Source: Stentor roeselii | Lineage: Eukaryota > Ciliophora > Heterotrichea > Heterotrichida > Stentoridae | Direction of reading: 5' to 3' | NCBI GenBank assembly: GCA_006503475.1 | Contig: RSEH01000247.1 | Span: 1-64,000 of the forward strand | Length of the DNA: 64,000 nucleotides | Part shown: positions 386-32,587 of the stretch, one piece after another | Layout: the number at the start of each line of letters is the position of its first letter | How positions within the stretch are numbered: position 1 is the first letter of the stretch | Made by a program: the position numbers and the translations under genes | Notes under the pieces: model-generated | Told to the model about the DNA's origin: nothing | What the model saw: the letters and a program-made list of their open reading frames with translations, nothing else | Databases searched by the model: none

Positions 386-1695
386 TTAATACCTAAGCAT
401 TCGCATGTACTCTGAAGCTCTTGCTAAATAGTATTCATCAATTTCATGGTTTAAACTACAATGACGTCGATTTGAATTAATTATTTCCTTCAAGCAATGT
501 AAACAAAGAATGCAAGTACATTTAAAACCAAATAATTGAATATCTTCAAATGAATTCTTACATTGTTGACAAATTTTGTTTGTGAGTTTAATTTGATAAT
601 TGAAATCGGAATTACAATATAGACAATATCTGATTCTTGATGAGATAAATGAGCATCGGTTACATAAATAATGATTTCCACAGTTATTTTCAGCAGCAAG
701 CTCATCACAATATGAACATTTTACTATTCCTTGATGTTCTTCATAATTAAAATTTATCAATTCCTTATATATTTGTTTAATATGCTCCATTTCGTTTTGA
801 TTAGCATTAATTTTTAGAATGTTAATCAATCTAATTAACTCATAGTTAAATTCACAGTATTCACGATCATTTTTACTAAGTTTTCCTTGGGCTTGTTTTA
901 CTGCATTGAAAATATTGTAAATATTAGGATATTCAGGCTTAAAAAAATTTAAATCACAATTTTGCGGTATGATATATTCAAGAGTTTGACAATCGTATCC
1001 ATCATATTCCATCATCTGCTGATGATAAATAATATTAAGTTTTTGTCCTAATTTTAGGTATATTATTGGATATTGTTGGCTGATATCGAATGGTGTATAG
1101 GTTTTCCAATCATTTAATGATTCATTTGTTGTGTAAATTATCAAATTGTAAGATTCGCTTATTAAATTGAAGTTATAAGGGTCTTTGATCATTTCTTTTG
1201 CACAACTACTAAAGAGAATACTGTTATCTTGAAATAATTTATAAAGTTTTTCTATCTGTCCAAGAGAGCAATCTCTAAAAATTCCATATATCTGGTCTAC
1301 TATTGCACATAAATTCGGAGACTTCCTCCAAATAATATTTTGCAAGTTTCTATAAAGACATTCTCTTCCAGGCCACTGAGGATGCCTAAATAATACTTCA
1401 AATAGACTTAAAAGCAAAATTGAGTTACTATCAAAAACGCTGTTTTCCTTTTCGAACCAATCATATAGTATTTTTGATCTCTTACCGAATACGGGATTTG
1501 CAGAGAGGTCGAATTGGCTACTTCTTCTATAATTTAAGTTTTGAGAGCCATCTTGGCTTCTTGAATTAGATGAATCTCGTGATATCAATTCATTTTCCTT
1601 TGGCTGATCCTGAACTTCAGCAAATATTTGTCCACCTTGAATAGAAACTTTTACTTCTATGCCTATTAATGATGATACTGAACTAGAACTAAAAT
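386..1695 (-). CDS. Otubain-like domain (inactive) plus C-terminal Cys/His zinc fingers; 5' end unclear
   Basis: This frame is open from about 1695 down to the TAA at 386, roughly 435 codons, but has no early in-frame ATG (the first is about a third of the way in). It is therefore probably the 3' part of the gene that starts at 2289. Two regions resemble otubain-type deubiquitinases: a helix ending LLLSLFEVLFR where otubains have their catalytic-Cys helix, and a strand pair YPIIYLKLGQKLNIIYHQ where otubains have xxVYLLYRPGHYDILY. The catalytic Cys and His are absent. The last 100 residues hold a RING-like set of CxxC pairs (CSYC, CNRC, CLYC, CQQC, CTCILC) followed by a late His. It could be a ubiquitin-pathway scaffold, which is an inference. 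It is AT-rich, and the joint with the upstream part needs a frame change, so it may be a decaying gene. Confidence 0.45.
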
Positions 1696-2289
1696 TTTAG
1701 ATTTCCCTTTATAAAAGGTAAAATTTTTATGAATCTTATAACGTATGAGTCTATCATCTTTGAGAATTATATACTCAGTTTCTAGTTGCCCTAATGGATT
1801 AGTAACAAAATTATCCAATTTAAATTTTAATTCAATTGATTCATCCATGAAAATTGCTTCAATTACGGCATATCCGTTAAAATAAATCAAAGCGTATTTA
1901 TTTATATATGAATTGATTGACTGCTCAACAATTGGTTTATTATCAGGGCCTATAACTTGATAAAATTCGACATCGATTGAAAAATGATAACCATCTGAAA
2001 ATTCAAGAGTACCGAAATCTGTTCTAAATAATACTAATTTTGCAAAAACTGCATCAATATCTAGCTTTGGATCAAGAAAAAATTCATATTCATTATCTTC
2101 CCTTGATTTGAAAAGTAACTTTGTGCCTTTATTCAATAAATTTTTAGGTGCTGGACGTCCTCTAAATAATATCTTATTCATTCGTCTTAAATAAGATTTA
2201 GAATCACAACATATTGTTATCATCACGGAATTTGAATTAACAATTCGAACAATCTCAGCTATTCCTTCTCTCTTTTGATTCTCACACAT
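1666..2289 (-). CDS. Unknown protein, probable N-terminal part of the otubain-like/zinc-finger gene
   Basis: It starts with a clear ATG at 2289 and encodes 207 residues before a TAA at 1666. No family is recognised. It looks beta-rich and well ordered, for example FGTLEFSDGYHFSIDVEFY near the middle. The next frame downstream on the same strand (386 to about 1695) overlaps its last 30 bases in another frame and lacks a start codon, so the two are best read as one gene of about 640 codons broken by a frame change at 1666-1695. The 16-nt GT...AG string in the overlap shifts to the wrong frame, so a simple micro-intron does not explain the break. Either an indel (real or assembly) or two separate genes remain possible. 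Confidence 0.45.
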   Translation of the reverse strand: MCENQKREGIAEIVRIVNSNSVMITICCDSKSYLRRMNKILFRGRPAPKNLLNKGTKLLFKSREDNEYEFFLDPKLDIDAVFAKLVLFRTDFGTLEFSDGYHFSIDVEFYQVIGPDNKPIVEQSINSYINKYALIYFNGYAVIEAIFMDESIELKFKLDNFVTNPLGQLETEYIILKDDRLIRYKIHKNFTFYKGKSKILVLVQYHH

Positions 2290-2524
2290 ATTGTCTATAA
2301 TTATAATCTTATATACTTTAATTAAATTTCCATTGTAATTTTAAAAATATAATCCTAATTTCTTTAGACTACCAAACATATCATCTAGAATTAAAAGCTT
2401 ATTTATACATAAATCAAAATCTTGCTATTTTCGTAAAATTTTTTGTTTCTCCCTGAACGTAGGACTAATATCAAATTGTTTCGCAGCAGTTTGAGAGAAA
2501 ATCTTTTATATTGCAAGATGCAGC

Positions 2525-3394
2525 TTAAAGGTGTATAGTATTCATTTTCTTCAGCTTGTTTAAGTGGACTATGCGAGTCATGAGCTTAGGCCTCCTCGTG
2601 ACTTTATTAACAGCAAAGTGATAACTGAACCCCTGTTTTTCCTTAACCTTAATAGTATTTTTCTTTTTGTCATTAGTTTCATTAAGAACTTGGACAAGTT
2701 CTCTAGAAAACATGACTCGATTTCTCTTAGGAACACTATTCGAGTTCCTCAAACACGAAATCAGCCTCGAAGACTCCTCAGGTTTCCCTTTAACCTTATT
2801 GATTTCATTAATCAACTCCTTAATTTTTCAGCTTGTTTTTAATTTCATTTCCTTAGTTCCTTATTCCTTTTTCAGTTGTTTCCCATCTTCACCAGTCTTT
2901 CAGCAGGGCCATTTCATATTTTCTGGTTTTTTTGGTATCAAATAAGTTGGTTGTGCTGCTTGCTTTTACCACTTCTGAGTCATTTTTCGGGCGATAAGGG
3001 TTTAAATATCACATTTTTTCCTCAAGTTAGAAATATAATCAAAATTCGATTTCACATTTATTCAGTCCAAATCTCTTCAATACGAAAGAAGAGCCTTTCA
3101 CATCTTTTCAACATTTCTAAATCCGCCAGTGAAATCCTTAAAATCCTGCAAATAAAAATGTTTCATCCCGCAGACCACTCCGAAAACCAGAAAATCGCGA
3201 TTCACATCAAAGACCTCAGCGATTAATCCTAAAAACGAAGGGATCTTCAAGCAAAAAGTCCTTCCAAAGTTAAATTCAATTCTAAACACATCTTCCGGAC
3301 TAGTCTCCAAGCTCATCAGCTTCTCGGGAGGTCTTTGGAAAAAAGCAAGTCGCTTAAGGTGAGTCGATCCAATCATCGAGTTACTACTCATCAT
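2525..3394 (-). pseudogene. Decayed protein-coding gene, unknown family
   Basis: The minus strand carries a chain of coding-quality stretches in changing frames. The first starts with an ATG at 3394 and runs about 98 codons. A second covers about 3000-2890 and contains NLFDTKKTRKYEMALLKDW. The last covers about 2920-2525 and has three in-frame stops near its start, then about 95 open codons with many Lys/Arg and an NRVMF string that matches the RVxF protein-phosphatase-1 docking pattern. Codon choice and residue content look like real protein, but no single frame or set of 15-16 nt introns joins the pieces. I read it as a host gene with at least two frame changes and several stops. The family is unknown. 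Confidence 0.45.
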
Positions 3395-3399
3395 TGATT

Positions 3400-3990
3400 A
3401 TTTTTGATGACTCGGCTGACAATGTCATTGTGAGCAGGCAAAAGTATATGGAAGACGAGAAAGGTTCAATCAAGAGTTCGCTATTAATTTAAAAAAACTC
3501 AGAAATGGAAGGTTTTCTGAAAATATTCAAGAAAACACTTCGGACTCAATGCGGACTCTGATGTCCAGCCACAGATTGTCACGTTGAGGGAGTCTTATGT
3601 TGAACAAAGGAAAAGAACTGAAAGTTGCTATCCACGGCTTGGGCATCAGAAAAGTCAACAGGAATTTTTTAGTCTTTCGGAAATAGGGAAGGGCCACTTG
3701 GAAGTCAACAGGATAAGCCTGATTATGGAGAACAGCAAGAAATTTTAAGTGAATTAGAAGATGAAAAGTTTAGAACGGGATTCGCTTATGTTAATTGCAG
3801 GGCTAGGGGGAAGAAGGACCAGCAGGATAGTCAGGAGTTTGATGGGTATCGCACTCATGACTTTGAAAGATCTGATGTTGAACAAGAGCCTTGGGGTAGT
3901 ATGAGTTGTATGCAAAAGCTGTAAAATGAAAAAAAGGCTGAAATCTTCAGCCGATGTTGAAGTCTGGAGTGTTTTCATTAATGGAAAGAT
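3400..3990 (+). pseudogene. Decayed protein-coding gene, unknown family
   Basis: The plus strand, divergent from the 2525-3394 relic, holds coding-like pieces. About 3407-3492 reads DSADNVIVSRQKYMEDEKGS and then meets a TAA. About 3680-3927 gives some 80 open codons including FRTGFAYVNCRARGKKDQQ and ends CMQKL followed by TAA. About 3928-3999 continues in another frame with VEVWSVFINGKIF. The acidic, Gln-rich content is typical of the neighbouring real proteins. The frame changes and stops argue for a broken host gene. No domain is recognised. Confidence 0.4.
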
Positions 3991-4019
3991 ATTCTAGTAC
4001 TTTGATAAAGCGCAACTAT

Positions 4020-4345
4020 GCAGCAGCTGTTTGGATAGATTCTAATCGATCCTCAAGAAGATTTCACACTCTCAAAACTTTATCATCTGATCCAGTAGCA
4101 ACAAATCTTCCATAATTAGAGAATGAAACAGAATTAACTTTTGCTCTATGCTCAAATTCGACAATTGGGACCGCTCTTATCTCAAAGATCTTTCTCTTGA
4201 TACAATAATTAAGATACTCCCTAAGCTTCGTTGATGTTGCTTTCTTCGATATACTTGAAGTATTCATACTCTTGGCTAAATCTCCAGGAGCTACCTTGAC
4301 TATATCACTTGCGCTATACTGTGGTTCTAAATCACTTATTTATAA
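4020..4345 (-). pseudogene. WD40-repeat fragment
   Basis: The frame is open from about 4335 to 4064 with an ATG at 4267, and it carries one WD40 repeat (VNSVSFSNYGRFVATGSDD, then KVLRV). The codon right after V, where the family has Trp (V-W-N-L), is TGA; the frame continues NLLEDRLESIQTAAA to a TAG. One repeat is far below the seven blades of a WD40 propeller, and the open frame runs upstream of the ATG without another start. It is most simply a leftover of a WD40 gene related to the broken array just upstream at 4893-6449. Confidence 0.55.
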
Positions 4346-4892
4346 GGAAATTTCTAAAATTAAACTACCTAAAGAAGTTTTATACAATAGTAATATATTC
4401 ATATAATTAAGATCTAAGTTCCATGTAATGTTTAATTTTCCCTTTAAGTTGGAACTTAAATTTAAAAATTCCAACTAATTTTCTTTCAATAGATATTCAA
4501 ATCTTAATAACTTCTCATGCATTTGATCGAAGTAGGATTTTAGCAGAAACTTTTGATTATTTAGATTAATTTTTTATGCTTTCTTATTTCATAATCTGCA
4601 TATAGATGAAATATTCAAATGGTTAACATTATGGGTTTGAATAATTTGGTAATTGAATATTTATCAGTCCTATTGGCGTGGTACTCATTATTAATTTTAT
4701 AAAAATGATATAGATAATCATCTAAAGATAAGTTTACTAAGTAATTTTAAGAAATATTAGAAGCTTTAAAAATTATTTGAATTCATCCTTACAATATTTT
4801 TAAAAGAACTTAATATTTTCTGTAAAAAATCCGAAGAAATTAATCTTAAGCATAAATTTCTAAGGAGAAAAATTCAAAGGTATAGAACAATT
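4346..4892. other. AT-rich spacer, no gene seen
   Basis: It lies between the detached WD40 fragment and the 3' end of the broken WD40 gene. I see no supported open frame. It could be the decayed middle of a once continuous WD40 locus, but no repeat sequence is visible in it. Confidence 0.4.
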
Positions 4893-6449
4893 TCACTCAA
4901 TAGTTTTAAAGAACCAGCTTCGAAAGTAAAAGTCTGCTCTCTTCTTCTGAAAATTCCAAATTTTAATACTTTTATCCTGAGATCCAGTCACAAAAAATTT
5001 TCCATCTTGACAAAAAATAACTGAAAGTATCCAATTTGAATGGCCTTTGATAGTGAAAACTTCTAGCTTATCTTGCAAATTCCAAATCTTAATATCTTGA
5101 GACCCACTTACAAGATAATGCCCATCAGGAGAAAAGACAACTGAATATACCCAACCTGAATGGCCTTTGAGAGTGAATTGCTCGCGCATGTCTTCAAAAT
5201 TCCAAACTTTAATAGTCTTATCCATTGATCCGCTCGCCAAAAATTTTCCATCAGGAGAAAATACAACTGATTTAATTTCTTTCTTATGGCCAAAAAGATT
5301 GAATTCTTCTTTGATCTCATGAAAGTTCCAATCAAATCTCCATTTTTTGAATCCTTTACTTAAATGCTTTCCATCATGAGTAAACATAACTGAGTTTGGG
5401 TAAAGTGAATATCCATAAAGTGTAAATTTTTTTATTTCCTTCTTCAAATTCCAGACTTTGATGCACTTATCGTTTGATCCGCTAGCTAAGAACCTACCAT
5501 TAGGAGAAAAGACAATTGAGTTTACAGAAGCTGAATGGCCATTAAGACTAAATTCTTCTCGTCTATCCTGAATATTCCAAACTTTAATGCTCTTATCATT
5601 TGACCCGCTCGCGAGAAAAGTTCCATCAGGAGAAACAGCAACCGAATTAACACAAAAACATGACTCATAAAAAATGAATTTTTCCTCATTTTCTGCCAAT
5701 TTAAAGCTCTGGTATTCACTTTTTTATATTCAATCAAAAGAAGTTTTTCATCTGGTGAAAAAATAACTAAGTTTGAATATTTTGAAAAGCTAGAAAGAGT
5801 GAAAAATAGTCGATTTTCCCTTAAGTTCCAAACTTTTATGCTGTTATCGCTGGACCCGCTTGCAAGATGTTTTCTATCTAGAGAAAATACAACACAATTC
5901 ACAGATTTTGAATGCCCATTAAGAGTGGTTTCTTCTCGGTTTTCCTGTAAGTTCCAAATTTCCATCATCAGAAAATACTACACAGTTTACAGCTTTTGAA
6001 TGGCCATTTAGAGTAAATTCTTCTTCAAACTTCAAAAAATTAAAAACCTTGATACTTTCTCCTCTAATTCCACTTGCAAAGAGCTTTCCATCCAAAGTAA
6101 ACATAACTGAGTGTATAATATATGGATGTGTTTGTATTTCGAAAATAACTTCTATAGATTCATTGTCTTTAATTTCGTTTTCAATTTTTCGATTGCTTAT
6201 AGTACTATCCATATATTCATGTATCAGATATTCGATCGGATAATCTTGAATAATTTTTATCTAGCTCCGAACTAAATGAGTAGAAATCTCAGATTCTCTA
6301 GTATTCATTACAATTTCACTAGGCAATTCATAATTAAATTTTTCATCTAATATTGTTAGCTTACTATCTGATGGTTCTTGACTTATCATATACATATTAT
6401 TTAGGGGCTTAAAAATATAATAAATTATATCATCATCTAAGAATATCAA
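4893..6449 (-). pseudogene. WD40-repeat protein gene, broken (ten repeats)
   Basis: The minus strand encodes about ten WD40 repeats of 40-42 residues with the consensus HSxxVNSVVFSPDGKFLASGS then DKSIKVWN, giving seven or more propeller blades and a presumed protein-interaction role. The piece from 5699 to 4893 alone has six repeats in one frame. Upstream the reading breaks: the N-terminal part starting with ATG at 6449 has an in-frame TAG at 6261-6263; the second repeat loses about 14 residues and the frame near 5960-5975; and another frame change lies near 5700-5720. None of these fits a 15-16 nt GT...AG intron. A shorter protein starting inside 5699 could still be made. I call it a pseudogene with three breaks, although indels from assembly within a repeat array are possible. 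Confidence 0.6.
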
Positions 6450-7040
6450 AGATTCCTATATATCTGATAAAAAATGAACCAATAAAGGTATGATGAATAG
6501 ATAAATAATTAATTTAAAAGCTATACTAATCATTACAGAGAAATTTAAATGATGATTACAAAATATTCCAACTAAAGTATTCGATAATCATTACTTATTA
6601 TCATAGTTCATTTTAATATATATAATATAATTGAAGGTTCAAATTAAAGTTATAGTAACGACTCTCCAAAAAGATATTATTACAGTTAATTATCTATTGA
6701 GTTTAAAATTCAGCCAATTCAACCCAAAGAATTTTAATACTAAAGAAAAGATTCTAATTAGACCAAAGTGTATAAAAAACCCTTTTGTAATTGAAAATAT
6801 TAATAGATATTTTTTCAATAGAAAATTTTTATATAAATGTTTGAAATCTTACAGTGATTGAAAACTCATAAAATATTTAGAGACTGATTGCTTATCAGGA
6901 CTCTATTACCAAGTTTCCTTGAACAAAGCATTTCGCAATTCAATTACATATTATTTATTTCTTTTTTATTATTATTTTTAATAATTTTAAACAAAACTGA
7001 CCTAATTTTACCAATTTATTATCACATCTCAAAAATTGTC
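6450..7040. other. AT-rich spacer, no gene seen
   Basis: Very AT-rich with long T and A runs. A 76-codon frame at 6631-6861 starts at TTG and has the residue content of translated AT-rich DNA, so I do not count it as a gene. Confidence 0.4.
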
Positions 7041-7190
7041 ACAAACCAGGTACTCCAACTCTTATCAGCCAAGGGGAAAGCTCAGGCCTCGAAGTCTTTT
7101 CTTCCAATGTCGAGCTTTTAGGTAACCCAATTAAGCCTCAAGAGCTTCGCACTCAGAAAGTCGAATTAAAAAGACCAGATTCTTGAGCCA
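7041..7190 (+). pseudogene. Short relic of a coding sequence
   Basis: About 45 codons are open without a start and read TPTLISQGESSGLEVFSSNV and then ELLGNPIKPQELRTQKVELK before a TGA. The base content is clearly richer in G and C than the surroundings, and the residue content is like the intact genes nearby. No domain is recognised. It could instead be an exon with unseen partners. Confidence 0.3.
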
Positions 7191-7245
7191 GGGTCTTATG
7201 GTCCACCTCAAATGAAAAAGGTTAAAAAATTATTATTTAACCTAA

Positions 7246-7812
7246 TTAACTATCCATAATTTCTCTCTCTCTTCTCACAATTTCAGGCGCGAAGTAAATA
7301 ATAAAAGTGGTTTTTTCCAGAACCTCACCTCTTGAATCCTCATTTTCATAAACTGCTGATACTCTACAAGAAAATCCTGCTGCATTTAAAAATCCTTCTA
7401 AAATTCCTGCAACGAATGCTGCACAATTGACTCCTTTTGAGCCTTTGGGAAGACAGGCGTATCTGTTGCATATGTTAGATTCCTCTTTGAGCATGTATAT
7501 GTGACTGTGATTTGCATGAACTTCTAATGAAGGAGCTGGCTTGTTAAAAACATTGAGCCAAAAAGGTTTAGCGATAAACCAAAGAATATCAACAATTTTA
7601 GTCTCTTTTTTACATCCTCGTTCACGAAAACAAAGCAATTCCAAATATCTTGGCCCTAAAGAGTATCCGAACTCCTCAAGTTGCTCTGAGAGTGAGTTTT
7701 TATCCTTCTTAAGACAATATTGAACGATTTCAGAGAACAAGAAGTGAAAAGCTGCTTCAGAGACTTCCTTTTTCGCTTTCAAGTTTTTCTCAAAAATTGA
7801 TGTCCTTCTCAT
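7246..7812 (-). CDS. TRAPPC5: TRAPP complex subunit 5 (Trs31/Bet3 family)
   Basis: This is a subunit of the TRAPP tethering complex, which acts as a Rab/Ypt1 exchange factor at ER-Golgi and Golgi membranes. The 188-residue product matches the TRAPPC5 layout: an N-terminal linker, then FHFLFSEIVQYC, a short helix pair ending RYLELLCFRERG, a KIVDILWFIAKPFW strand-helix segment, and the diagnostic VNCAAFVAGILEGFLNAAGF block seen as NCxSFxAGIVEA in other eukaryotes. Length is normal for the family. I chose the ATG at 7812 (MRRTSIFEKN); an upstream TTG in frame is not needed. It is divergent from the gene at 8043, with a 40-bp tandem repeat in the shared spacer. Confidence 0.85.
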   Translation of the reverse strand: MRRTSIFEKNLKAKKEVSEAAFHFLFSEIVQYCLKKDKNSLSEQLEEFGYSLGPRYLELLCFRERGCKKETKIVDILWFIAKPFWLNVFNKPAPSLEVHANHSHIYMLKEESNICNRYACLPKGSKGVNCAAFVAGILEGFLNAAGFSCRVSAVYENEDSRGEVLEKTTFIIYFAPEIVRREREIMDS

Positions 7813-7907
7813 AACTATAAACAAGATAAGTAATCGAAGATAAATGCTGAAAACTCAATAAAAAAATATGAAATATCTCACCAAGTCAAATTCACAAAAC
7901 TTTTTGA

Positions 7908-8018: not shown

Positions 8019-8042
8019 CTAAATTCGAACCATAATAAATCA

Positions 8043-8516
8043 ATGCAACTTCAAATTCAAGGAACCAAATGTAAAAAATACATTCCTCCATCATCATACC
8101 GAAAGCGATCAGTGCACATTTCTCTATTCATCGGTAATCGTCCTTCTTCATCCAAAGCAGAGCGTCCAAAGTCATCAGTCGTCTCTTACGTGCAGCGACG
8201 ACTGTTGACCCCTTCAGTGAAAGAAGACAATCAAGACACATGTGTGAGTCCGATTTACATGCCGAAAATGTTGAGCAAGACTCCATCTCCTCAAAAGCTG
8301 AGATTTTACAGCCACAAATTTAAAACTCCAAAAAACTCTGACCAGTCAGTCCCTGCCCAAGCAGCATTGAAAAAGCTGACAATGAAAAACTGTTCAATGA
8401 CTCAAGCATTGAACTTGAGCATCAACATTGGCAGGTTTAATTCACAGAGTGACAAGAAGTCTTCAACTTTATCACAAATCAACCCAGTCCTGAAGATAGT
8501 AAGTCTAATACATTAA
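8043..8516 (+). CDS. Small basic Ser/Lys-rich protein, unknown
   Basis: The 157-residue product starts with an ATG at 8043 and ends at TAA. It has no recognised domain. It is basic, rich in Ser, Lys and Pro, with several SP or TP pairs (TPSVK, KTPSPQKL, FKTPKN) that would suit proline-directed kinases, and looks mostly disordered. The last residues after KIV are encoded by GTAAGTCTAATACATTAA, which begins like a splice donor but has no AG at 15-16 nt, so I keep the colinear end. It is followed after 25 bp by the MED8-like gene on the same strand. Confidence 0.6.
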   Translation: MQLQIQGTKCKKYIPPSSYRKRSVHISLFIGNRPSSSKAERPKSSVVSYVQRRLLTPSVKEDNQDTCVSPIYMPKMLSKTPSPQKLRFYSHKFKTPKNSDQSVPAQAALKKLTMKNCSMTQALNLSINIGRFNSQSDKKSSTLSQINPVLKIVSLIH

Positions 8517-8541
8517 AATGAATAACTAACATTGACGAGAT

Positions 8542-8952
8542 ATGGACAGGAATAAAGCTTTTATCAAGTTTAAAGACTCGAATAGTCTCTTGAAAATTAA
8601 ACAAAAGGCGATTGTTTTAAGAGATTTAATTGAGAAAAACCTTGACCAGAACAAGACTTGGCCAGAAAGACTGGAACTTTACTCGCTATGCGCGAATAGT
8701 CTTCAAGACCTGCAGACTGACTTGTCTGATATTCCTGAGTCGAACAACTTGACATTGGTCCCTGACTATGAACTTCATGAAGTTCCTGATTATGTTCCAA
8801 ACCTTATTTGCCCTATTTTGAATGAAAATATTGAAAAGGTCGCGAATGAGTGCTCGGATGAGTTCAAGTCGTCAATTGTTCATAACCATGAACAGCAAGC
8901 TATGAACTTCAATGCCTTTTGCCATGAACTCAGGAGATTATTCAAAAAGTAG
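8542..8952 (+). CDS. Mediator subunit 8-like protein
   Basis: The 136-residue product resembles MED8, a head-module subunit of the RNA polymerase II Mediator complex in the nucleus. Shared features in the same order are an N-terminal helix (LKIKQKAIVLRDLIEK), the conserved TWP followed by an amphipathic helix (ERLELYSLCANSLQDLQTDL), and the HEVPDYVPN block where animal MED8 has HEVVPDHLRTKP, then a terminal helix. It is shorter than human MED8 (about 270 aa) but close to the core. The match was made by eye; a coiled-coil protein with a chance TWP is the alternative. Spacing to the next same-strand gene is 17 bp. Confidence 0.5.
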   Translation: MDRNKAFIKFKDSNSLLKIKQKAIVLRDLIEKNLDQNKTWPERLELYSLCANSLQDLQTDLSDIPESNNLTLVPDYELHEVPDYVPNLICPILNENIEKVANECSDEFKSSIVHNHEQQAMNFNAFCHELRRLFKK

Positions 8953-8969
8953 TTAATCATGACTATAAA

Positions 8970-9428
8970 ATGGGAGTGATGGATGAAGAGTACTTTTACG
9001 TGGCTCAGACAGAGCTACCTCCTGCGGAACAAGAGAGAGCGGATAATCAGGTTTTGGAAATTCAGCAGAAGTTCCTGTTCGATTGGGTTGTTAATACTAG
9101 TTTAGACCTATACAAGACTGATCAAGAACGTGACTGGGCCTACGTGGTCCGCAAAGAACTAACATACATCGAAAGAAAGTCATATGGGGTCGGCTTCTGT
9201 CAATCCTCATTATTGGCGATGATGTTCTCAATTTCTTCTAAAAAAATCTCATTTATCCCTTTCGTATTGACGCCAATATTAGCAGCAATAGATTACTACC
9301 CTCGACTCGACCTCAACACGAGAAGACTCTTTGGAATGCTCAACTTGGGCACAGAGTTCGAATTAGGCGCTGAAAGAAACAGAGTTCTGGAAGAGTCAAA
9401 CAGAATATCCAGACGAGCCGACTTTTAG
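8970..9428 (+). CDS. Small protein with a hydrophobic hairpin, unknown
   Basis: The 152-residue product has a start ATG preceded directly by TATAAA. Residues about 78-108 are hydrophobic with a central Lys pair and Pro (LLAMMFSISSKKISFIPFVL and TPILAAI), fitting a short transmembrane hairpin. The flanks are acidic and Arg-rich. No family is recognised. Its stop is 4 bp from the stop of the convergent gene at 9433, which encodes a protein of similar size and layout. Both could be mitochondrial inner-membrane subunits, which is a guess. Confidence 0.6.
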   Translation: MGVMDEEYFYVAQTELPPAEQERADNQVLEIQQKFLFDWVVNTSLDLYKTDQERDWAYVVRKELTYIERKSYGVGFCQSSLLAMMFSISSKKISFIPFVLTPILAAIDYYPRLDLNTRRLFGMLNLGTEFELGAERNRVLEESNRISRRADF

Positions 9429-9432
9429 CTAT

Positions 9433-21252: not shown

Positions 21253-22209
21253 TTAGATAGATGAGTAAAAAAGACTTAAAAGTGAAAGAGATCGCCCGTT
21301 TAACAGGGTTTTGCACAGGGTGCATCTTAAGTTGTCTCCTTGGCAAGAAAAGCAAATCATTTCAGAACAACAGTGCTTTGGTAAGAAGTTTTCAATAGTT
21401 TTTTCCGTTTTGCAATTCACACATTGACTCAAAAGAAACTTCTCCACTTCCTGCATTTCTAAATCACTTAAACACTTCCTACAACAAGCACATTCTCCAG
21501 TGTCCTTCACCTGTTTCAAACAACTTAAGCAGTAAGTCTGGTGATTTTCAAGGTGAAAAGTAAAGTCTCCTACCATATAAACCACTTCTTTACACCAAGA
21601 GCACAGAACCTGTTTTTCAAAAAGACTTTCAGCAGGTTCGAACTGAAAAGAGCATTTTTCACAGAAACAGTTGTTTTTCCAGTACTTTTCAGCAACACAC
21701 TGACTGCAATAATCCCCGCATTTCAAGTCATCTGAAGCAGGTCTTGCACATTTAAAGCACTTTTTCAACTTGTTCACGCCGAACTCTTCCAAGTAACTCG
21801 AAGCGAACTGCTCTGAGATCTCGAAAGGAGAAAAAGGAAGACTGCAAATTGAGCATCTTAAGTCAGAAGCTTCAGAAATTAAGAGGTTCAAACAAGATTC
21901 ACAGAACATATGACCGCAGTTGATTCGGATCACTGAAGAATTTGCACAACTTGAACATTGAATCGAGGAGTAGATCTGAGAAAGTAATGACTGAAGAGAC
22001 TCTGGAACTTGATCTCCAAGAAGTTTACGGAAATAGTTCAACTTTTCTAGAATTTCAGACATGTGCTCTGAAAATGGTCTCGGGCACTTCAATGCTTCCA
22101 TCAGTTTTAAGACAAGTTCTAATGTTATCTGGAGAAGTTTTTCAGGAGTGTCTTGAAAAAGTGGCTTGGACTTGCTTTGGACGACTGGAAGATTGTAAAC
22201 TTTAGACAT
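21253..22209 (-). CDS. RING-finger protein with many extra Cys pairs
   Basis: The 318-residue product has an all-helical N-terminal 80 residues, then a RING finger (CSSC ... CGHMFCESC ... CSIC) typical of E3 ubiquitin ligases. After it come at least five further CxxC or CxxxC pairs (CFKC, CSQC, CEKC, CSWC, CLSC, CACC, CVNC, CTLC), suggesting tandem zinc knuckles down to the C-terminus (RCTLCKTLL). The layout recalls RBR ligases, but the spacing does not clearly fit IBR. The zinc array is similar in style to the C-terminus of the gene at 386-1695. It is convergent with the PDI-like gene, one base apart. Confidence 0.7.
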   Translation of the reverse strand: MSKVYNLPVVQSKSKPLFQDTPEKLLQITLELVLKLMEALKCPRPFSEHMSEILEKLNYFRKLLGDQVPESLQSLLSQIYSSIQCSSCANSSVIRINCGHMFCESCLNLLISEASDLRCSICSLPFSPFEISEQFASSYLEEFGVNKLKKCFKCARPASDDLKCGDYCSQCVAEKYWKNNCFCEKCSFQFEPAESLFEKQVLCSWCKEVVYMVGDFTFHLENHQTYCLSCLKQVKDTGECACCRKCLSDLEMQEVEKFLLSQCVNCKTEKTIENFLPKHCCSEMICFSCQGDNLRCTLCKTLLNGRSLSLLSLFYSSI

Positions 22210-24685: not shown

Positions 24686-24704
24686 CAGATTCGCTTAGGA
24701 TTAA

Positions 24705-25408: not shown

Positions 25409-26386
25409 TTAACTATTTAAACTCTTCGATGCACTTAACACCCTAAAATCAGTGAATCTCTCAAAACATGAAAAATAATCAGGAAGCCTATCCTCAAAAC
25501 TCCAAACCTCTTTAAATTTCCAGTCATAAACCAAAAACTCCATCTTCATATTTTCATCAAATCTTAAAACAGCAGCCAAGTTTTTGTGCAACTGAAAATT
25601 AGAAGCTGAAAAAATAGTAACAATATTTCCACCCTGCTCTTGTGAAAATCCTTCCATAACAAGTTGATGCGACCTGACAATCATTTTCAAATCATTTTTC
25701 TCTAAAAACTTCGAAGTTACATCAGTTCCAAAGCCAAAATCATAACTTTTCGGAGAAACTGACCATCCAAGACCACTAAAAGGAAAATTCCACAACAAAT
25801 GCATCAAAGGTCCATCACTCTTCACATCAGAAAACCTTTCAACAGCCATTAACTCTTCAATCCTTTCAACTGAAAATGAAATCCCAGAATGTACACAAAA
25901 CACCTGACCTCCAACAACAGCAGCAAAGGGAAAACAGTTAAAAACCTTTAAAAAACCTTCAAAAACCAGAAAATCTCCGAATTTTTCTAAGATTTCTTGA
26001 AAAAAGCCATAAGTTTGACCTGCACCTGCACATTCGTGACATCCTCGCAAAAGGGTAAGTTTTGAAGGGAAAAGTATTTTGTATATAAATAAAATGCAAA
26101 GGACTTCAACTGAAAATTTCCCTTTGTTGATGTAATTTCCAAGAAAAAGGAAGTTTGAAGCTGGAGGACGACCTGATAGTTTAAAGATTTCTTGAAGGTC
26201 TTCTAATGAACCTTGAATGTTTCCACAGATTGTTACAGGACTTTCGATTTGAAGCACGTTTGGCTCTTGGATTAGAAGTTTCGATACTTTTTGGCAGAGA
26301 AGAGTCACTTCGGATTTTGAAGGTGTTTTAGAGTTTTGAATGGATTTTAAAAGAGTTTTCAGTGATTTTCTGGTGGGTTCTGACAT
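25409..26386 (-). CDS. PPP-family protein phosphatase with a disabled metal site (pseudophosphatase)
   Basis: The 325-residue product has the whole PP1/PP2A/PP6 scaffold in order, but the metal-ligand motifs are altered: GDxHG is GNIQG (residues 55-59), GDYVDRG is GNYINKG (83-89) and RGNHE is RGCHE (114-118). Thus three acidic/His ligands and the bridging Asn are replaced. HGG is HSG, while the RSHQ His and the SASNF segment are kept. Four substitutions of six metal ligands make metal-dependent Ser/Thr hydrolysis unlikely; a phosphate-binding or scaffold role is an inference. Apart from the active site the gene is intact, which argues for selection on the fold rather than decay. Confidence 0.85.
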   Translation of the reverse strand: MSEPTRKSLKTLLKSIQNSKTPSKSEVTLLCQKVSKLLIQEPNVLQIESPVTICGNIQGSLEDLQEIFKLSGRPPASNFLFLGNYINKGKFSVEVLCILFIYKILFPSKLTLLRGCHECAGAGQTYGFFQEILEKFGDFLVFEGFLKVFNCFPFAAVVGGQVFCVHSGISFSVERIEELMAVERFSDVKSDGPLMHLLWNFPFSGLGWSVSPKSYDFGFGTDVTSKFLEKNDLKMIVRSHQLVMEGFSQEQGGNIVTIFSASNFQLHKNLAAVLRFDENMKMEFLVYDWKFKEVWSFEDRLPDYFSCFERFTDFRVLSASKSLNS

Positions 26387-26473
26387 TTATTTTGGATTTG
26401 AGAGGGGTTTTTAGGTAGATTTCATGAGGGTTTTAAGTGGTTTGGTGTGTGGAATGATTTCTCTTCAACAAAA

Positions 26474-27901
26474 ATGGACTCTTTTCTGAAGGCAGTGACA
26501 TCCTTCAAAGACAAGATAGTTAAGACTCCTTTAGAGCGTCTAGTCCACGACGCCTGCACAGACGAGAACTGGGGAGTAGCAAACACTTCACTTCACCAGA
26601 TCTCCGACAAGACTCACAACTCAGAAGAGCGTTCAATAATAATGCGAAACATCTGGGAGCTTCTATCCTCCCCATCAAAAGAATGGCGTCGTCTATACAA
26701 AGTTTTAAACCTTTTAGACCATTTACTGAAGTTCGGTTCATTAAATTGTGTAAACGAGATAAAAGACAACATCTTCAAAATCAAAATGTTTCAAGATTTC
26801 TCATTTCGAGAAGGTATCGAAGAAAAAGGAATCGGTGTAAGAGACAAAGCAAAATATTTAACTCAAATGATTAGCGATTCAAGAGTTTTTGATGAGGAAA
26901 GAGAAAAAGCTCAGAAAATGTGGAATAAAATGAGCGGGTCGAATAGTTATTCAACTGGAGCTGGCTTCAGAGATCGGAATAGCTTTGATAGTGGGTCAAG
27001 GTATGAAGGATTTGGAAGCAAGGACTTTGGATATAGTGCTGGAACGACAGGGGGGGGTAGAAGTGATCAGGGAATTGGAGGGTATCGAAGTGAACCCGCT
27101 TCTGCTGGGTTGAGGAATGAGGATAAGAGGGAGGATATCAGGAGTGAGGATATTTTTAAACAAAATCAGCAAAATAAGTATAGTCTTTGGGATGCGCCTA
27201 GTATTCGACCTGCTGCTTCTCCAAGTAACGGATCCGTAAAATCACTAAAACCACCGACAGGTTTCCACCCATCAAACGTGCAATCAAAGCCAACTCTGAC
27301 CCACAGCCAAAGTGTATCATCCACAACCTTGGACCTTCTATTCGAAGCGGCAAGTCCTCATCCCTCATCTTTTTTCCCATTGCCACAGTCCACATCAAAT
27401 AAAGCCCATTCACCATCAGGAGGAGATCTTCTATCAATGACAAAAGCAAGTTCATCCCCTCCCTCACAATCACTTCCCTTAAGCCAAGGACTAGACGACC
27501 TTCTTTTCCATCCAATAGACTCAAAGTCTCTTCACTCTCATCAAGGTTCATTCCCTTCCTCCTCAAGTCCTCCATCAAACCTAGATTTTTCCCTGCCTTC
27601 AAATCTTTTCACAGAAGTTCCAATTCAAGGCACACTTTCCAAAGACAGGCCAGGGCCAGGCCCTGGCCAATTACTTTTAAACACTTTTTCTGAAAGTTCA
27701 GGGAAAAAGCTAAACGTGAATCTTTCAGGAGGAACAAGCATGGACCAAATGAAAACTTTCAACTCAGGCGGCTTTAGTAACTTCAGTGGCTTTGTCTCAG
27801 CACCGACGATGCCAGTAAGTCTCGAAAGTAAACTTTTTAACCTTGACGACCTGGAAGCCGGGCAGCCTAAGGCGAAAGAAGTGGTTAAAAACAAGTGGTA
27901 G
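26474..27901 (+). CDS. Epsin-type ENTH-domain endocytic adaptor
   Basis: The 475-residue protein links PtdIns(4,5)P2 membranes to clathrin. Residues about 12-150 form an ENTH domain (PLERLVHDACTDENWG, IMRNIWELLSSPSKEWRRLY, KVLNLLDHLLKFGS, VRDKAKYLTQMI). The remainder is disordered and Gly/Ser-rich, with adaptor-like DLLF boxes (LDLLFEAAS, LDDLLFHP) and a clathrin-box match LFNLD near the C-terminus (residues 454-458). I start at the ATG at 26474; the frame upstream has no ATG. No ubiquitin-interacting motif or NPF is visible. Confidence 0.9.
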   Translation: MDSFLKAVTSFKDKIVKTPLERLVHDACTDENWGVANTSLHQISDKTHNSEERSIIMRNIWELLSSPSKEWRRLYKVLNLLDHLLKFGSLNCVNEIKDNIFKIKMFQDFSFREGIEEKGIGVRDKAKYLTQMISDSRVFDEEREKAQKMWNKMSGSNSYSTGAGFRDRNSFDSGSRYEGFGSKDFGYSAGTTGGGRSDQGIGGYRSEPASAGLRNEDKREDIRSEDIFKQNQQNKYSLWDAPSIRPAASPSNGSVKSLKPPTGFHPSNVQSKPTLTHSQSVSSTTLDLLFEAASPHPSSFFPLPQSTSNKAHSPSGGDLLSMTKASSSPPSQSLPLSQGLDDLLFHPIDSKSLHSHQGSFPSSSSPPSNLDFSLPSNLFTEVPIQGTLSKDRPGPGPGQLLLNTFSESSGKKLNVNLSGGTSMDQMKTFNSGGFSNFSGFVSAPTMPVSLESKLFNLDDLEAGQPKAKEVVKNKW

Positions 27902-27910
27902 TTTAACTAA

Positions 27911-28711
27911 CTATCTCTGAATAAGTTGTTCAAATGAATAAGCTTCTGAATCTATTTCTTTTAACTCTTGAATGATTTTTTGAAGAATGTCTATTTGGTC
28001 TGCTTTTAAATTAAGAGAAGCTGTTTTTTTGATGAACTCTTTTATAGTGGTTAACTCGATTTCTTGGTAAGGGTCTCTCAGTGAAAGGTCGAAAAGAGAA
28101 GAAGTGTTCAAGTTGGCTTCGTGGATATTTTGGTAGTTTGAATGATAAAGCATGTAAAAGGTCTGTGGCTCTTTCTGGCAGAAGTAAAAGTTTAGAACTA
28201 TTGGGTCGATGTACCTGTTTGCAATGATCTGGTGTAGAAGTTGAGATTCACTGTAAAAAATGAACTGAATGTTTAAATTTGTAGAAGCATTATTCAATGA
28301 TTCTGTTATCTTCGAGAAGTCCATCTCAGAAACGTTGATTCTGTAGATGTCTAAAGAAAATAACTGAATTTCATTTAGTAAACTTATATCATCTTTCACC
28401 TGTTTTACAAAATCAATGTGGTCTACTTGTTTTTTTCCTTGAATTTCTAAAAAAAGCTGAAAAATTCTAGGATATTTTTCCTTTGCTTCATTTTCATCTA
28501 TCCTGCTTTGAAGTTACTGGTCGATGATAAAAGAAAGATTGTTAATTGTCTCATTTTGTCGCAAAATAAGAGATTCTATTAAATTCAGTCCTAAAACTTT
28601 AATATACCCGGAGTTCCCTGGTCCACAGTTCTTTGCTTTATTGAAGCCTTTTTCGACTAGAATTGGATAAGCTTCTTGAGATTTGATACTGCTTACTTTC
28701 ACTTCAGACAT
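27911..28711 (-). CDS. Otubain-fold protein without catalytic residues, one 15-nt intron
   Basis: Removing the 15-nt intron at 28503-28517 gives a continuous 261-residue protein from the ATG at 28711. Residues 28-50 (NCGPGNSGYIKVLGLNLIES) align with the otubain active-site helix GDGNCFYRAxxFSxLE, with Asp replaced by Pro and the catalytic Cys by Ser. Residues 179-193 (TFYMLYHSNYQNIHE) align with VYLLYRPGHYDILY, with the catalytic His replaced by Asn. The protein should therefore bind rather than cut ubiquitin, if it binds it at all. The tail after residue 195 is helical. It is the second of three such genes in this window. Confidence 0.65.
28503..28517 (-). other. 15-nt intron GTAACTTCAAAGCAG
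   Basis: On the minus strand the frame hits one TAA, then stays open in the same frame for 190 codons. The 15 bases from GTAAC to CAG include that stop. Removal joins CA and G to keep the Gln codon (DQ-IDENE). Its length and GTAAC...CAG borders match the Sec62-like gene's first intron. Confidence 0.85.
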
Positions 28712-28760
28712 TTATTAATTCCAAATGTTGAATATATAACTATTAATTTCAAATACAGAA

Positions 28761-29174
28761 ATGGAAATCGAGAATATCGCTGATGATGAGACCTGTATCA
28801 AGAAAAGTAAAGAATTTATTGGGTTTAAATTCAGACCTGTCTTAAGAAGGACCAAATATAGTCAAAAGGATTCCGATGAATGCTTGAAGTTCAAGAAAAG
28901 TCTTTTAAGGAAACCTGTTGTTAATTTTGTTGACTCGGTTTATGTCAGTCGAGATGCGAAGATGAAGAAAAAGTTACTTGTTGTTAAACCTTTTGATAGG
29001 AATCATTTCATTAATGTTCATGGACCTGTTCTTGGAAAAAAAACGAGTTATGAGAAAAGATCGGTTTCTGTTGCTCCTGTTAAAAAGGAAGCTGTGCCCT
29101 CGTTTTTTCGATATGATGACTTGACTTTACCGATTTTGTCTATCAGACATAAAAAGTATAAAAGTAAAGAATAA
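28761..29174 (+). CDS. Small basic protein, unknown
   Basis: The 137-residue product starts with an ATG at 28761, 49 bp from the divergent gene's start. It is Lys/Arg-rich with Val/Phe patches (RKPVVNFVDSVYVSRD, KKLLVVKPFDRNHF). No domain is recognised. The ending YKSKE precedes a TAA. Confidence 0.5.
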   Translation: MEIENIADDETCIKKSKEFIGFKFRPVLRRTKYSQKDSDECLKFKKSLLRKPVVNFVDSVYVSRDAKMKKKLLVVKPFDRNHFINVHGPVLGKKTSYEKRSVSVAPVKKEAVPSFFRYDDLTLPILSIRHKKYKSKE

Positions 29175-29764
29175 TTGTTTATAGATTTTTGTGGGTTTTT
29201 GTGAGAAAGGATTTTATTATATGAGGATTTTTAATTATTCAAGTATTTTATAGAGTGACTTGAAAATATTCATTATTGTTTAAATCTTAGGATTATTTAG
29301 GATTGGGAACCTTTTGTTATATAGTGCTTTGTATCTTTTATTTTTATTTGAAGTATCTCATCCAGTAGTTTAGTTTAAATTCTTATTTGTAGCTTTAAAT
29401 ATTGTCTTATTACTGTTTACAACATATATAATTTACTATATCTAAATGGAATTATGGTATGATATATTTTTTCTAGTAGAGAAAAACTAAATTTTTGATC
29501 GATTAATTGAAGAAAGCAGCTAATCAAACTAATCTTCTTTCCACAAAAAGTTTTGGTTAAAAATCTACTCAGAAAATGTTGCTAAAATTAGAGCACTGTT
29601 TAGGATTATCTAGAATCTTATATCAGTTAATGCCATGATAAATTCGCTAAGATTTTCTTTAATTATTGTTAAATATTTGGTTAATTCTCCACTTTCATAC
29701 AGTAATTCTTGTACCAAATCATAAATTTTATAATACTTAAACAATATTTACTTGTAGAAAGACT
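29175..29764. other. AT-rich spacer, no gene seen
   Basis: No coding frame or repeat can be supported. The right end merges into the decayed copy of the otubain-like gene. Confidence 0.45.
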
Positions 29765-30030
29765 TCTTGATGATTAATTTCTATGAAAAACTTTTTTTTA
29801 TATGATAAACATAAACACTTCAGTAATAAAATTCTCATGTAAAGTTCATACAAAGTTTGATACTGAATATATTTCGAAAGACTTTGATTCAAGTAAGCCT
29901 GCTGTTTACTTAGAAGTTCATGAAGGAAATTCTCTTTTCTGTACCCTCAACAGTTTTCAGACTGCATGTATAATAAAGACTATGATAGTAACCTTCTGAG
30001 ATTTTTCCGTTTACTTTACCAGAAAGAAAG
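29765..30030 (+). pseudogene. Truncated decayed copy of the otubain-like gene at 30422
   Basis: About 265 bp closely match the C-terminal part of the otubain-like domain of the gene at 30422 (around 30835-31105), for example KDFDSS, then VYLEVHEG and FQTAC where the intact gene has FLDCM. The relic has lost the N-terminal half and the Pro-rich tail and shifts frame after LEVHEGNSLF. It is in direct orientation about 1 kb upstream of the intact gene, so a tandem duplication followed by decay is the simplest history. Confidence 0.8.
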
Positions 30031-30130
30031 ATAAATAAGAAGCATAAGCTTAATATAAAATCTATTTAAACTCACTAGTTAACCATAAGGGTTTAAACCT
30101 TGTTGAAAACATCATCTTAAAACATTTAAT

Positions 30131-30370
30131 TCTTAAAAATATAAATCTTATATTCAATCCTTAAACCTAAATAAACTCGTCTAATCAATGCTAATACAAA
30201 TATAATTTCCCGATCACTTCATTTACATATCATTACCTAATATTTTATATTCTTAAATAGTATAAATCTTATATTCAATCCTTAATCCTAAATAAACTCG
30301 TCTAATCAATACAAATAAAAATATCATTTCCCGATCACCTCATTTTCCTATCATAACTAAACCTAATACT
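30131..30370. repeat. Direct repeat of about 121 bp, two copies
   Basis: The segment starting at 30131 recurs at 30251 with small changes. Both copies share ATAAATCTTATATTCAATCC, AAATAAACTCGTCTAATCAA and TTTCCCGATCAC words in the same order. It fills the spacer between the decayed copy and the intact otubain-like gene and reaches its presumed promoter, so it may mark the duplication. Confidence 0.85.
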
Positions 30371-30421
30371 TTAATATACTTAAATAGGACATCTAATTTC
30401 CATATTATAAATATAGACATT

Positions 30422-32587
30422 ATGTCTAACTGGGGTGTTCAATTGTTTGCCAACGATAATCCTGAATTATCTCAAGAATTCCCTGCAAAACTTAGCTGTA
30501 CAGATAAGCATCCTTCTTTTTATGCTATGCTAAGTTATGCGATCTTGGAAGTACTTCTCAGATTCAAAGGATCCAACCATTTGATCAAAAATTTCCAGGA
30601 TGCTTACATCGACGTAATGACAAATATTGGTCAAGTTTTAGAGAATCAAGGAAAACAGATTCCGGACTATAATTTTTTCATTGAGTGGCAAAATTATCTT
30701 GTAAATTCAACTGAGCCAAAAACGACCATTTTTAAACAGCATTTGGCAGGTCTCTATATCAATGATCAATTCAATGAATCATGCAAAAACCACAGCAAGG
30801 CTATAATGATGTACTGCTTTCTGAATAGTTCTTATGAACTTGAATTTTATGAAAATGAATCTTCTCCACCAAATATCGATTATACTTTCAACACCGTGGC
30901 TTCAGTATTAAAGCTCTCATTCAAAGTTCTTACACAGTATGATACTGGATATTATCCGAAAGACTTTGATTCAAGTATGCCTGTTGTTTACTTAGAAGTT
31001 CATGAAGGAAGTTACTCTCTGCTGTACCCTCAACAGTTTTTAGACTGCATGAATAATGAGGAATATGATAGTAACCTTTTGAGGTTCTTCCCGTTTACTT
31101 TACTTGAGGAAAATAATCAGCCAGAGCCACCTGCTGATCTTGTAGATGAACCAGGAAGAAATGATAATCAAGATGATGATATTAATATTGAACCGCAAGG
31201 GGATATAGGGAATGGGCCGATTGATGAGATAATTCCTAATCAAGTTCATGTTGAGGTTAATAATCAAAATGAAGATGAAAATAACAGAGAGAATGGAAAA
31301 AGAGTAAAGACTAGACCACATTACAAGATAAGACTCGATAAAGCCTCTTTAACGTTTCCTGATAAGGTAATACCTCCACCAATAATTGGACTACCACCTG
31401 CTCTAGGAGGCCCACCTGGACTTGGAGGCCCACCTCCTCTTGGAGGCCTACCTGGACTTGGAGGCCCACCTCCTCTTGGAGGTCCACCTGGACTTGGAGG
31501 CCCACCTGCTCTTGGAGGTCCACCTGGACTTGGAGGCCCACCTGCTCTTGGAGGCCCACCTGGACTTGGAGGCCCACCTCCTCTTGGAGGTCCACCTGGA
31601 CTTGGAGGCCCACCTGCTCTTGGAGGCCCACCTGGACTTGGAGGTCCACCTCCTCTTGGAGGCCCACCTGCTCTTTCAGGCCCACCTGGTCTTGGAGGCC
31701 CACCTGGTCTTGGAGGCCCACCTGCTCTTTCAGGCCCACCTGGTCTTGGAGGCCCACCTGCTCTTTCAGGCCCACCTGCTCTTTCAGGCCCACCTGCTCT
31801 TGGAGGCCCACCTGGACTTGGAAGCCCACCTGCTCTTGGAGGCCCACCTGGACTTGGAGGCCCACCTGCTCTTGGAGGCCCACCTGGACTTGGAGGCCCA
31901 CCTGCTCTTGGAGGCCCACCTGGACTTGGAGGCCCACCTGCTCTTGGAGGCCCACCTGGACTTGGAGGCCCACCTGGACTTGGAGGCCCACCTGCTCTTG
32001 CAGGCCCACCTGCTCTTGGAGGCCCACCTGCTCTTGGAGGCCCACCTGGACTTGGCCTTAGTGCACCTGTGGTAACAATTCCTCATCAAGTAAGTGGCGG
32101 TGGAATTGCTCCAGGTTCAACATCAACAGTTCCTCCTGTAGGTCTTTCAGGTCCTCCACCTCTTTCAGGTCCTCCACCTCTTTCAGGTCCTCCAGGTCCT
32201 CCAGGTCTTTCAGGTCCTCCAGGTCTTTCAGGTCCTCCACCTCTTTCAGGTCCTCCAGGTCCTCCAGGTCTTTCAGGTCCTCCAGGTCTTTCAGGTCTTT
32301 CAGGTCCTCCACCTCTTTCAGGTCCTCCAGGTCCTCCAGGTCTTTCAGGTCTTTCAGGTCCTCCACCTCTTTCAGGTCCTCCAGGTCTTTCAGGTCCTCC
32401 AGGTCTTTCAGGTCCTCCACCTCTTTCAGGTCCTCCAGGTCTTTCAGGTCTTTCAGGTCCTCCACCTCTTTCAGGTCCTCCAGGTCCTCCAGGTCTTTCA
32501 GGTCCTCCACCTCTTTCAGGTCCACCATCCTTAGGAACATCTCCGTTATCAGGCCCACCAATCCTACGACATCCTTCAAACCAATAG
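30422..32587 (+). CDS. Inactive otubain-like domain fused to a long Pro-Gly repeat tail
   Basis: The 721-residue product starts with ATG at 30422. Residues 24-48 ([20 protein letters not shown]) parallel the otubain Cys helix, and residues 186-203 ([18 protein letters not shown]) parallel VYLLYRPGHYDILYK; both the catalytic Cys (Pro/Ser here) and His (Ser here) are missing. An acidic linker (residues 235-290) follows, then about 385 residues of Leu-Gly/Ser-Gly-Pro-Pro hexapeptide repeats that resemble SH3/WW/profilin ligands and could form polyproline-II rods. The tail is fully in frame over more than 1.1 kb, which suggests selection. Location and partners are unknown. Confidence 0.7.
31390..32055 (+). 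repeat. Hexapeptide-coding repeat block 1 ([12 protein letters not shown])
   Basis: About 37 tandem units of 18 bp based on GGAGGCCCACCTGGACTT and GGAGGCCCACCTGCTCTT, in alternation, with a few TCA (Ser) variants in the middle. Larger 36-bp pairs are visible, so expansion went by multi-unit steps. The repeat leaves long open frames in other frames and on the other strand, which are not genes. Confidence 0.95.
32143..32560 (+). repeat. Hexapeptide-coding repeat block 2 ([12 protein letters not shown])
   Basis: About 25 units of 9-18 bp based on CTTTCAGGTCCTCCACCT and CTTTCAGGTCCTCCAGGT. It encodes nearly the same peptide as block 1 but with Pro codons CCT CCA instead of CCA CCT and Gly GGT instead of GGC, so it arose by a separate expansion. 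An 85-bp non-repeat stretch separates the blocks. Confidence 0.95.

Follow-up and report, generated by a model that had tools for sequence, protein, structure and literature searches.

Gene C, located in the 64,000-nucleotide stretch of Stentor roeselii DNA analysed here (the window), is read with moderate confidence as coding for a divergent otubain-like domain that has lost its catalytic triad and would serve as a non-catalytic adaptor, genes A and B being perhaps further dead members. The open reading frames (ORFs) of the three genes were recovered at the coordinates given in an earlier note on this DNA, which had attributed the otubain layout to all three. This layout was retrieved in gene C and is tentative in gene B, while gene A fails the direct tests. 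Similarly, the layout and the residue loss, said to be seen together, coincide in gene C and possibly in gene B. All comparisons within the window refer to a set of 47 proteins, namely those of genes A, B and C and of 44 other ORFs, overlapping ORFs being left out. Stop codons are the standard ones, with 21 TAA, 14 TAG and 4 TGA for 39 window ORFs.

The putative otubain-like domain of gene C

30422 to 32587, forward strand: gene C, 721 aa, with a putative N-terminal otubain-like domain, an acidic linker and a Pro/Gly/Leu tail
30503 to 30559, forward strand: gene C block 1, aa 28-46, aligned to GDGNCFYRAFGFSHLEALL (profile and alignment)
30515 to 30517, forward strand: gene C Ser32, at the Cys place, in block 1
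30983 to 31027, forward strand: gene C block 3, aa 188-202, aligned to KVYLLYRPGHYDILY (profile and alignment)
31010 to 31012, forward strand: gene C Ser197, at the His place, in block 3

Gene C displays both the sequence layout and the residue loss. Its motif reads PSFYAML...LEVLL, and Lys29, Ser32 and Ser197 stand where otubains have Asp, Cys and His; with the conventional triad gone, gene C therefore cannot act as a cysteine protease of this type. Indeed, the Asp, Cys and His expected of a catalytic otubain/peptidase C65 are all replaced in genes B and C, and gene A is devoid of Cys and His at the aligned places.

The match of gene C to otubains appears to exceed chance clearly in several tests. 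With a three-block otubain profile, gene C scores 57.3 and ranks first among the 47 window proteins, a score reached by none of 2000 shuffles, none of 2000 column-permuted profiles and none of 258 pieces of unrelated E. coli proteins (122 ORFs; top piece 36.2). Otubains left out of the profile score 209-230, far above gene C. Pairwise comparisons with four otubains give z values of 2.7, 3.4, 2.0 and 3.9, the mean of 2.98 being the best of the 47, and one of them, with rice otubain, is weak (71/1000 shuffles as high). HMMER also places gene C at the top of the window proteins, 21 of 1000 shuffles scoring as high, and hhalign ranks it first among 48 inputs, yet with a probability of 1.28% only. 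Block 2 is weak, with a score of only 7.7. It is put at aa 121-144 by the profile and at aa 150-170 by the OTUB1 alignment, so that the central part of the domain is not placed with certainty. Gene C seems to carry a very divergent otubain-like domain, the resemblance being good for this gene.

Genes A and B as candidate members

27911 to 28711, reverse strand: gene B, 261 aa spliced, with a tentative otubain-like domain and a C-terminal stretch
28503 to 28517, reverse strand: putative 15-nt intron of gene B, GTAA...AG, enclosing an in-frame TAA
386 to 1588, reverse strand: gene A ORF, 400 aa from TTG
389 to 721, reverse strand: Cys-rich segment of gene A, 111 aa, 14 Cys, 4 His
1666 to 2289, reverse strand: 207-aa ORF upstream of gene A, in another frame, overlapping the open frame of gene A

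The 261-residue reading of gene B is obtained, as announced, once the putative 15-nt intron is removed. The length of this intron and its branch-point A at position 10 are those reported for Stentor introns in PMC9505925. Both 15-nt frame-rescuing introns of the window start with GTAA and have an A at position 10; counted by length, the window contains two of 15 nt, five of 16 nt and three of 10 nt, with no excess at 15 nt.

The GPGNSGY motif is indeed found in gene B, together with a YxLY hairpin motif, and Pro, Ser and either Tyr or Asn occupy the places of Asp, Cys and His. The replacement of His by Asn claimed earlier depends on the alignment, as the one with OTUB2 gives Tyr at the His place and Asn next to it; a gap in this alignment also shifts GPGNS by one residue relative to the helix. 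In the three-block test, gene B scores 46.2 and ranks second of 47, with 3/2000 shuffles and 3/2000 column-permuted profiles as high, and none of the 258 E. coli pieces reaches this score. Allowing for the 47 proteins compared, the otubain signal of gene B seems borderline. It is unsupported by HMMER (479/1000 shuffles as high) and by three of the four pairwise otubain tests. With two versions of an hhalign profile combining otubains and gene C, gene B is only 26th and 15th of 46, with 56/100 and 33/100 shuffles reaching it, which gives no support. Its status as a dead otubain-like member can be called suggestive. Weak matches of gene B to AraC (E 0.075), SdpA (E 0.085) and DUF2441 (see below) were rejected.

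The frame of gene A is open from 1696 only, and the listed ORF is without ATG up to residue 133. Three candidate introns of 15 or 16 nt, lying roughly between 2400 and 1100, all fail to connect the gene to an ATG. The 207-aa ORF is perhaps the 5' part of gene A, with a frame break. A part of gene A similar to the C-terminal portion of the gene C domain is followed by the Cys-rich segment, whose spacing is zinc-finger-like as judged by eye and for which Pfam displays no family above cut-off. A weak match of gene A to FAM76 (E 0.89) was not retained. No Cys or His is found at the aligned triad places. Gene A is at chance with the three-block profile (1230/2000 shuffles as high), and 232 to 928 of 1000 shuffles score as high in its pairwise comparisons with the four otubains. 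The two hhalign profiles including gene C rank it 4th and 3rd of 46, with 12/100 and 5/100 shuffles reaching it, i.e., little support. The tie of gene A to otubains, which passes only via gene C, is suggestive.

A common origin of the three genes, as implied by the family proposed in the earlier note, did not find support. The pairwise score between genes C and A is 62 (13/2000 shuffles as high), the similarity between genes A and B is weak (117/2000) and that between genes C and B is nil (1904/2000). MAFFT aligned the blocks of the three proteins inconsistently. Gene C could be the sole otubain relative, genes A and B being unrelated lineage-specific proteins whose match to otubain motifs was picked by eye, with no three-gene family. 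This explanation, considered somewhat unlikely, fits the nil and weak similarities involving gene B, the chance-level score of gene A, the failure of gene B in HMMER, hhalign and most pairwise tests, and a weak full-length match of gene B to DUF2441 (E 0.017, below the family cut-off). It accounts less well for gene B still being second of 47 and above all E. coli pieces in the three-block test, and for genes A and C being mutual best partners in the window set, with a common stretch after the hairpin that includes QQ and YD. A wider family of genes A, B and C would be plausible. No relative was confirmed in viral contigs scanned with gene C, gene A, the second exon of gene B and an OTUB1/OTUB2 alignment, or in prokaryotic genome contigs scanned with genes C and A; this absence says little, as the collections scanned are those of viruses and prokaryotes. 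In the open-access papers searched, no report of such an otubain-like ciliate family was found.

Family and fold searches

Curated models do not recognise the domain. Pfam returned neither PF10275 nor any other OTU model on genes A, B and C at E values up to 10, a null result in which HMMER filters may have dropped weak matches. No OTU chain occurs among the matches of the PDB sequence searches with these genes (1, 3 and 6 matches), and NCBIfam gave no OTU match for genes A and C or for the second exon of gene B. The hhalign probabilities of the three genes do not exceed 1.28%. Single-sequence AlphaFold models of the 261-residue gene B protein (pLDDT 35.4) and of the first 247 residues of gene C (pLDDT 36.7) are uninformative. 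Foldseek found no OTU chain among the best 50 of 178 matches for gene B and in any of the 36 matches for gene C, results of little weight with models of pLDDT below 40, and nothing with E up to 0.001 appears among the matches listed for either model. In these poor models, the order of a helix followed by a hairpin looks OTU-like by eye; it was not counted as evidence. A weak match of gene C to PolC (E 0.019), below the cut-off, was discarded.

The silence of the curated models, the low hhalign probabilities and the unusable AlphaFold models would fit a convergent match, genes A, B and C being all non-OTU and resembling otubains only by the hydrophobic patterns of an alpha-helix and a beta-hairpin. 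Such convergence is nevertheless judged improbable, as the score of gene C was unmatched by shuffles, permuted profiles and unrelated pieces alike, and as its alignment with OTUB1 spans the whole domain, from FY to ILY. Finally, an OTU enzyme using a displaced Cys-His pair (Cys26 with His194 in gene C, Cys29 with His185 in gene B) is hardly credible: although both proteins have a Cys located 17 residues ahead of the LE-helix Glu and 5-6 residues ahead of the Ser at the Cys place, as well as a His that precedes the canonical His place by three residues, gene A has neither residue, the Cys precedes the helix instead of standing at its start, and such positions common to two proteins can be due to chance.

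The repeat tail and the relic

31373 to 32584, forward strand: gene C tail, aa 318-721, 404 residues
29818 to 30019, forward strand: relic, partial duplicate of the gene C hairpin region, DNA 87% identical, frame broken
30125 to 30354, no strand assigned: 121-bp tandem repeat, 1.9 copies, between the relic and gene C

The low-complexity tail of gene C contains 141 Pro and 126 Gly and is encoded by DNA largely made of 18/36-bp and related repeats. PPGL motifs occur 25 times in it. According to PMC12249416, PPG-hydrophobic motifs, PPGL included, are ligands of Smy2-type GYF domains, and all 25 correspond to the definition of such ligands, in which a hydrophobic residue, Trp excepted, comes after PPG. 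The relic, whose frame is disrupted by single-base gaps, is real; it is a partial duplicate of gene C only.

Proposed role

We infer the fold, binding and function of gene C from its sequence. As a divergent, triad-less otubain-like protein, it is probably a scaffold for binding, not an enzyme. The dead domain would bind one protein partner (ubiquitin, an E2 enzyme or another protein), and the PPGL sites of the tail may gather GYF-domain proteins or drive assembly. Gene A, with its Cys-rich C-terminus, and gene B, standing alone, may be further, more diverged dead members. More broadly, a heterotrich lineage might have made dead adaptors of its otubains, each copy having a module of its own (a Cys-rich finger, a helical stretch or the 25-fold PPGL tail that gathers proteins with a GYF domain); these adaptors would connect partners of the ubiquitin system with mRNA silencing or with other GYF machinery, an extension regarded as rather unlikely. 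There are few pseudo-enzymes in the OTU class, and their roles in binding are under debate. If the adaptor reading is true, gene C would be a clean natural case for asking what role is left to an OTU fold that is unable to cut, and would test whether adaptors combining a low-complexity tail and a dead OTU domain recur.

Comparison with known systems

Otubains (peptidase C65, PF10275), such as OTUB1, OTUB2 and rice OTUB1, present GDGNCFYRAF...LEALL followed by the hairpin VYLLYRPGHYDILY, a block order apparently kept in gene C. Gene C aligns with them over the domain, but its triad is lost, it has no Pfam match and, in the alignments, its segment after the first helix is shorter.

OTU proteins with Ser in place of the catalytic Cys are described in Drosophila, namely Otu and CG3251 of the OTUD4 family (PMC4654579). 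In this source, CG3251 is devoid of deubiquitinase activity and of significant ubiquitin binding, the latter being given as data not shown. Since this Cys-to-Ser protein, the best precedent found, has no detectable ubiquitin binding there, it speaks against the "ubiquitin reader" of the earlier note, which is not the default reading. Otu is called inactive in PMC4654579 and is said to deubiquitinate Cyclin A with Bam in PMC12006264 (citing Ji 2017); on its activity, the two sources disagree. Drosophila Otu and CG3251 belong to another OTU subfamily, and CG3251 retains the Asp and His that gene C has both lost. Drosophila Otu reportedly has a long low-complexity region, as implied by the title of Ji 2019. 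The tail of gene C is a Pro/Gly/Leu repeat, which sets it apart from both Drosophila proteins.

FAM105A/OTULINL is a relative of OTULIN (C101) found at the ER membrane, and it is not known to have a Pro/Gly tail. As an OTU-class pseudodeubiquitinase without DUB function (PMC10318531), it would resemble gene C, whose OTU fold is predicted from sequence. Inactive OTU proteins are an already described kind (PMC4654579, PMC10318531). In GYF ligands such as TNRC6A, PPGL is bound by the Smy2-type GYF domain (PMC12249416); the same motif, present in 25 copies in the repeat tail, makes gene C a candidate ligand of this type.

A probable otubain-like domain lacking the catalytic triad

30422-32587 (+): gene C, 721 aa, otubain-like domain with a Pro/Gly/Leu tail
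29818-30019: relic of the hairpin region of gene C
27911-28711 (-): gene B, 261 residues once spliced
386-1588 (-): gene A, frame open from 1696

An earlier note had proposed that these three genes and the relic form a family of otubain-fold proteins deprived of the catalytic Cys and His, plausibly a lineage expansion used as ubiquitin readers. Sequence comparison partly confirms the observation: the case is strong enough for gene C, tentative for gene B and indirect for gene A. The proposed expansion of ubiquitin readers is conjectural.

The ORF of gene C comprises an N-terminal domain of about 230 residues, an acidic linker and a 404-residue tail. A three-block profile, combining otubain sequence blocks with otubain spacing, was run on 47 proteins (A, B, C and 44 other non-overlapping ORFs of the window). 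C ranks first with a score of 57.3, which is matched by 0/2000 shuffles and by 0/2000 column-permuted profiles, while the top score in an unrelated control of 258 pieces from 122 E. coli ORFs is 36.2. True otubains withheld from the profile reach 209-230, which leaves C very distant from them. HMMER also places C first in the window, with 21/1000 shuffles at or above its score, and hhalign places it first of 48, with a probability of only 1.28%. Pairwise comparison of C with four otubains gives z values of 2.7, 3.4, 2.0 and 3.9, the best mean among the 47 proteins. Lone values of this size arise by chance, since a z of 3 is reached in 4 of the 176 comparisons between the 44 other window proteins and otubains, and in 5/141 comparisons with reversed decoys; four such values jointly, as in C, are seen nowhere else in this set.

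The alignment of C with OTUB1 extends from the FY following the catalytic Cys to the ILY following the catalytic His. On this alignment the OTUB1 triad of Asp88, Cys91 and His265 is replaced in C by Lys29, Ser32 and Ser197, respectively. The weak point of the match is the second profile block, placed at aa 121-144 with a score of 7.7, whereas the OTUB1 alignment takes a later helix-strand pair instead. The relic is real: it is an incomplete copy of C's hairpin region (the strand pair near the His place), 87% identical at the DNA level and broken in frame, and it adjoins a 121-bp tandem repeat.

Gene B and its putative intron

The in-frame stop of gene B sits within a 15-nt GTAA...AG stretch with an A at position 10. 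This form agrees with the introns described for Stentor, 92.8% of which are reported to be 15 nt long (PMC9505925). Among frame-rescuing introns counted by length in the window, the 15-nt length is not over-represented. Another 15-nt GTAA...AG stretch, GTAACCAATACCCAG, occurs at 41888 (-), and the frame stays open once it is removed.

In the three-block test, B ranks second of 47 with 46.2, a score reached by 3/2000 shuffles, 3/2000 permuted profiles and 0/258 E. coli pieces; the signal is borderline once 47 proteins are allowed for. Pairwise, B matches OTUB2 (2/1000 shuffles) and is unsupported against OTUB1 (458/1000) and the rice (101/1000) and Arabidopsis (639/1000) otubains. Neither HMMER (479/1000 shuffles) nor hhalign finds an otubain match for B, and no pairwise similarity between B and C is detected (1904/2000 shuffles). 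A weak full-length match of B to DUF2441 (E 0.017) lies below cut-off.

Gene A and its broken 5' end

Direct tests of A against otubains, by three-block profile and pairwise, are negative, and its suggested link to the family passes through C. A and C are mutual best partners within the window set; their likeness, which spans the hairpin and the residues that follow, scores 62 (13/2000 shuffles), and BLASTP gives E 0.008 for the single comparison. The C-terminal 111 residues of A contain 14 Cys and 4 His, and a Pfam search of this Cys-rich part returns nothing above cut-off. In the frame of A no ATG occurs ahead of residue 133, and an ORF lying upstream overlaps it in a different frame. This broken 5' end may stem from a slip in the assembly, from damage to the gene or from a structure that escaped notice.

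1666-2289 (-): ORF of 207 aa, end overlapping the open frame of A in another frame, without Pfam match

Genomic setting

The G+C content of the window is mostly 0.25-0.42. Among 30 ORFs scanned, eukaryotic genes include those for kinesin, ENTH, TRAPP, PMM and a eukaryotic porin, with others; a tRNA search of the window found none. Stop codons in 39 ORFs are TAA (21), TAG (14) and TGA (4). Taken with the form of the putative intron in B, this suggests a Stentor-like heterotrich ciliate.

35915-37075 (-): BRAP2-like protein carrying a RING and a zf-UBP domain; this probable ubiquitin ligase lies a few kb away from gene C
21253-22209 (-): ORF whose weak RING-type matches fall short of the Pfam cut-offs
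8043-9428 (+): three adjacent same-strand ORFs of 157, 136 and 152 aa, without match in a Pfam scan

Putative role and known inactive OTU proteins

Since none of the triad residues is kept, C is expected to be unable to cut ubiquitin. Its tail carries 25 PPGL, 16 PPAL and 12 PPPL motifs, and the ligand of Smy2-type GYF domains is described as PPG followed by a hydrophobic residue (PMC12249416). C may accordingly act as a scaffold or adaptor that could bind ubiquitin or some other partner through its domain and GYF-domain proteins through its tail.

Inactive OTU proteins are of a kind already known. In Drosophila CG3251 and Otu, the catalytic Cys is replaced by Ser, as in C (Ser32). CG3251 is reported neither to cut ubiquitin nor to bind it significantly, and activity is not regained when the Cys is put back (PMC4654579). 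Drosophila Otu, by contrast, is described in another paper as acting with Bam on Cyclin A (PMC12006264). OTULINL offers a further parallel to C (PMC10318531). Set against these proteins, C would be a novelty within this kind through its occurrence in a ciliate, its lack of the entire triad and its PPGL tail.
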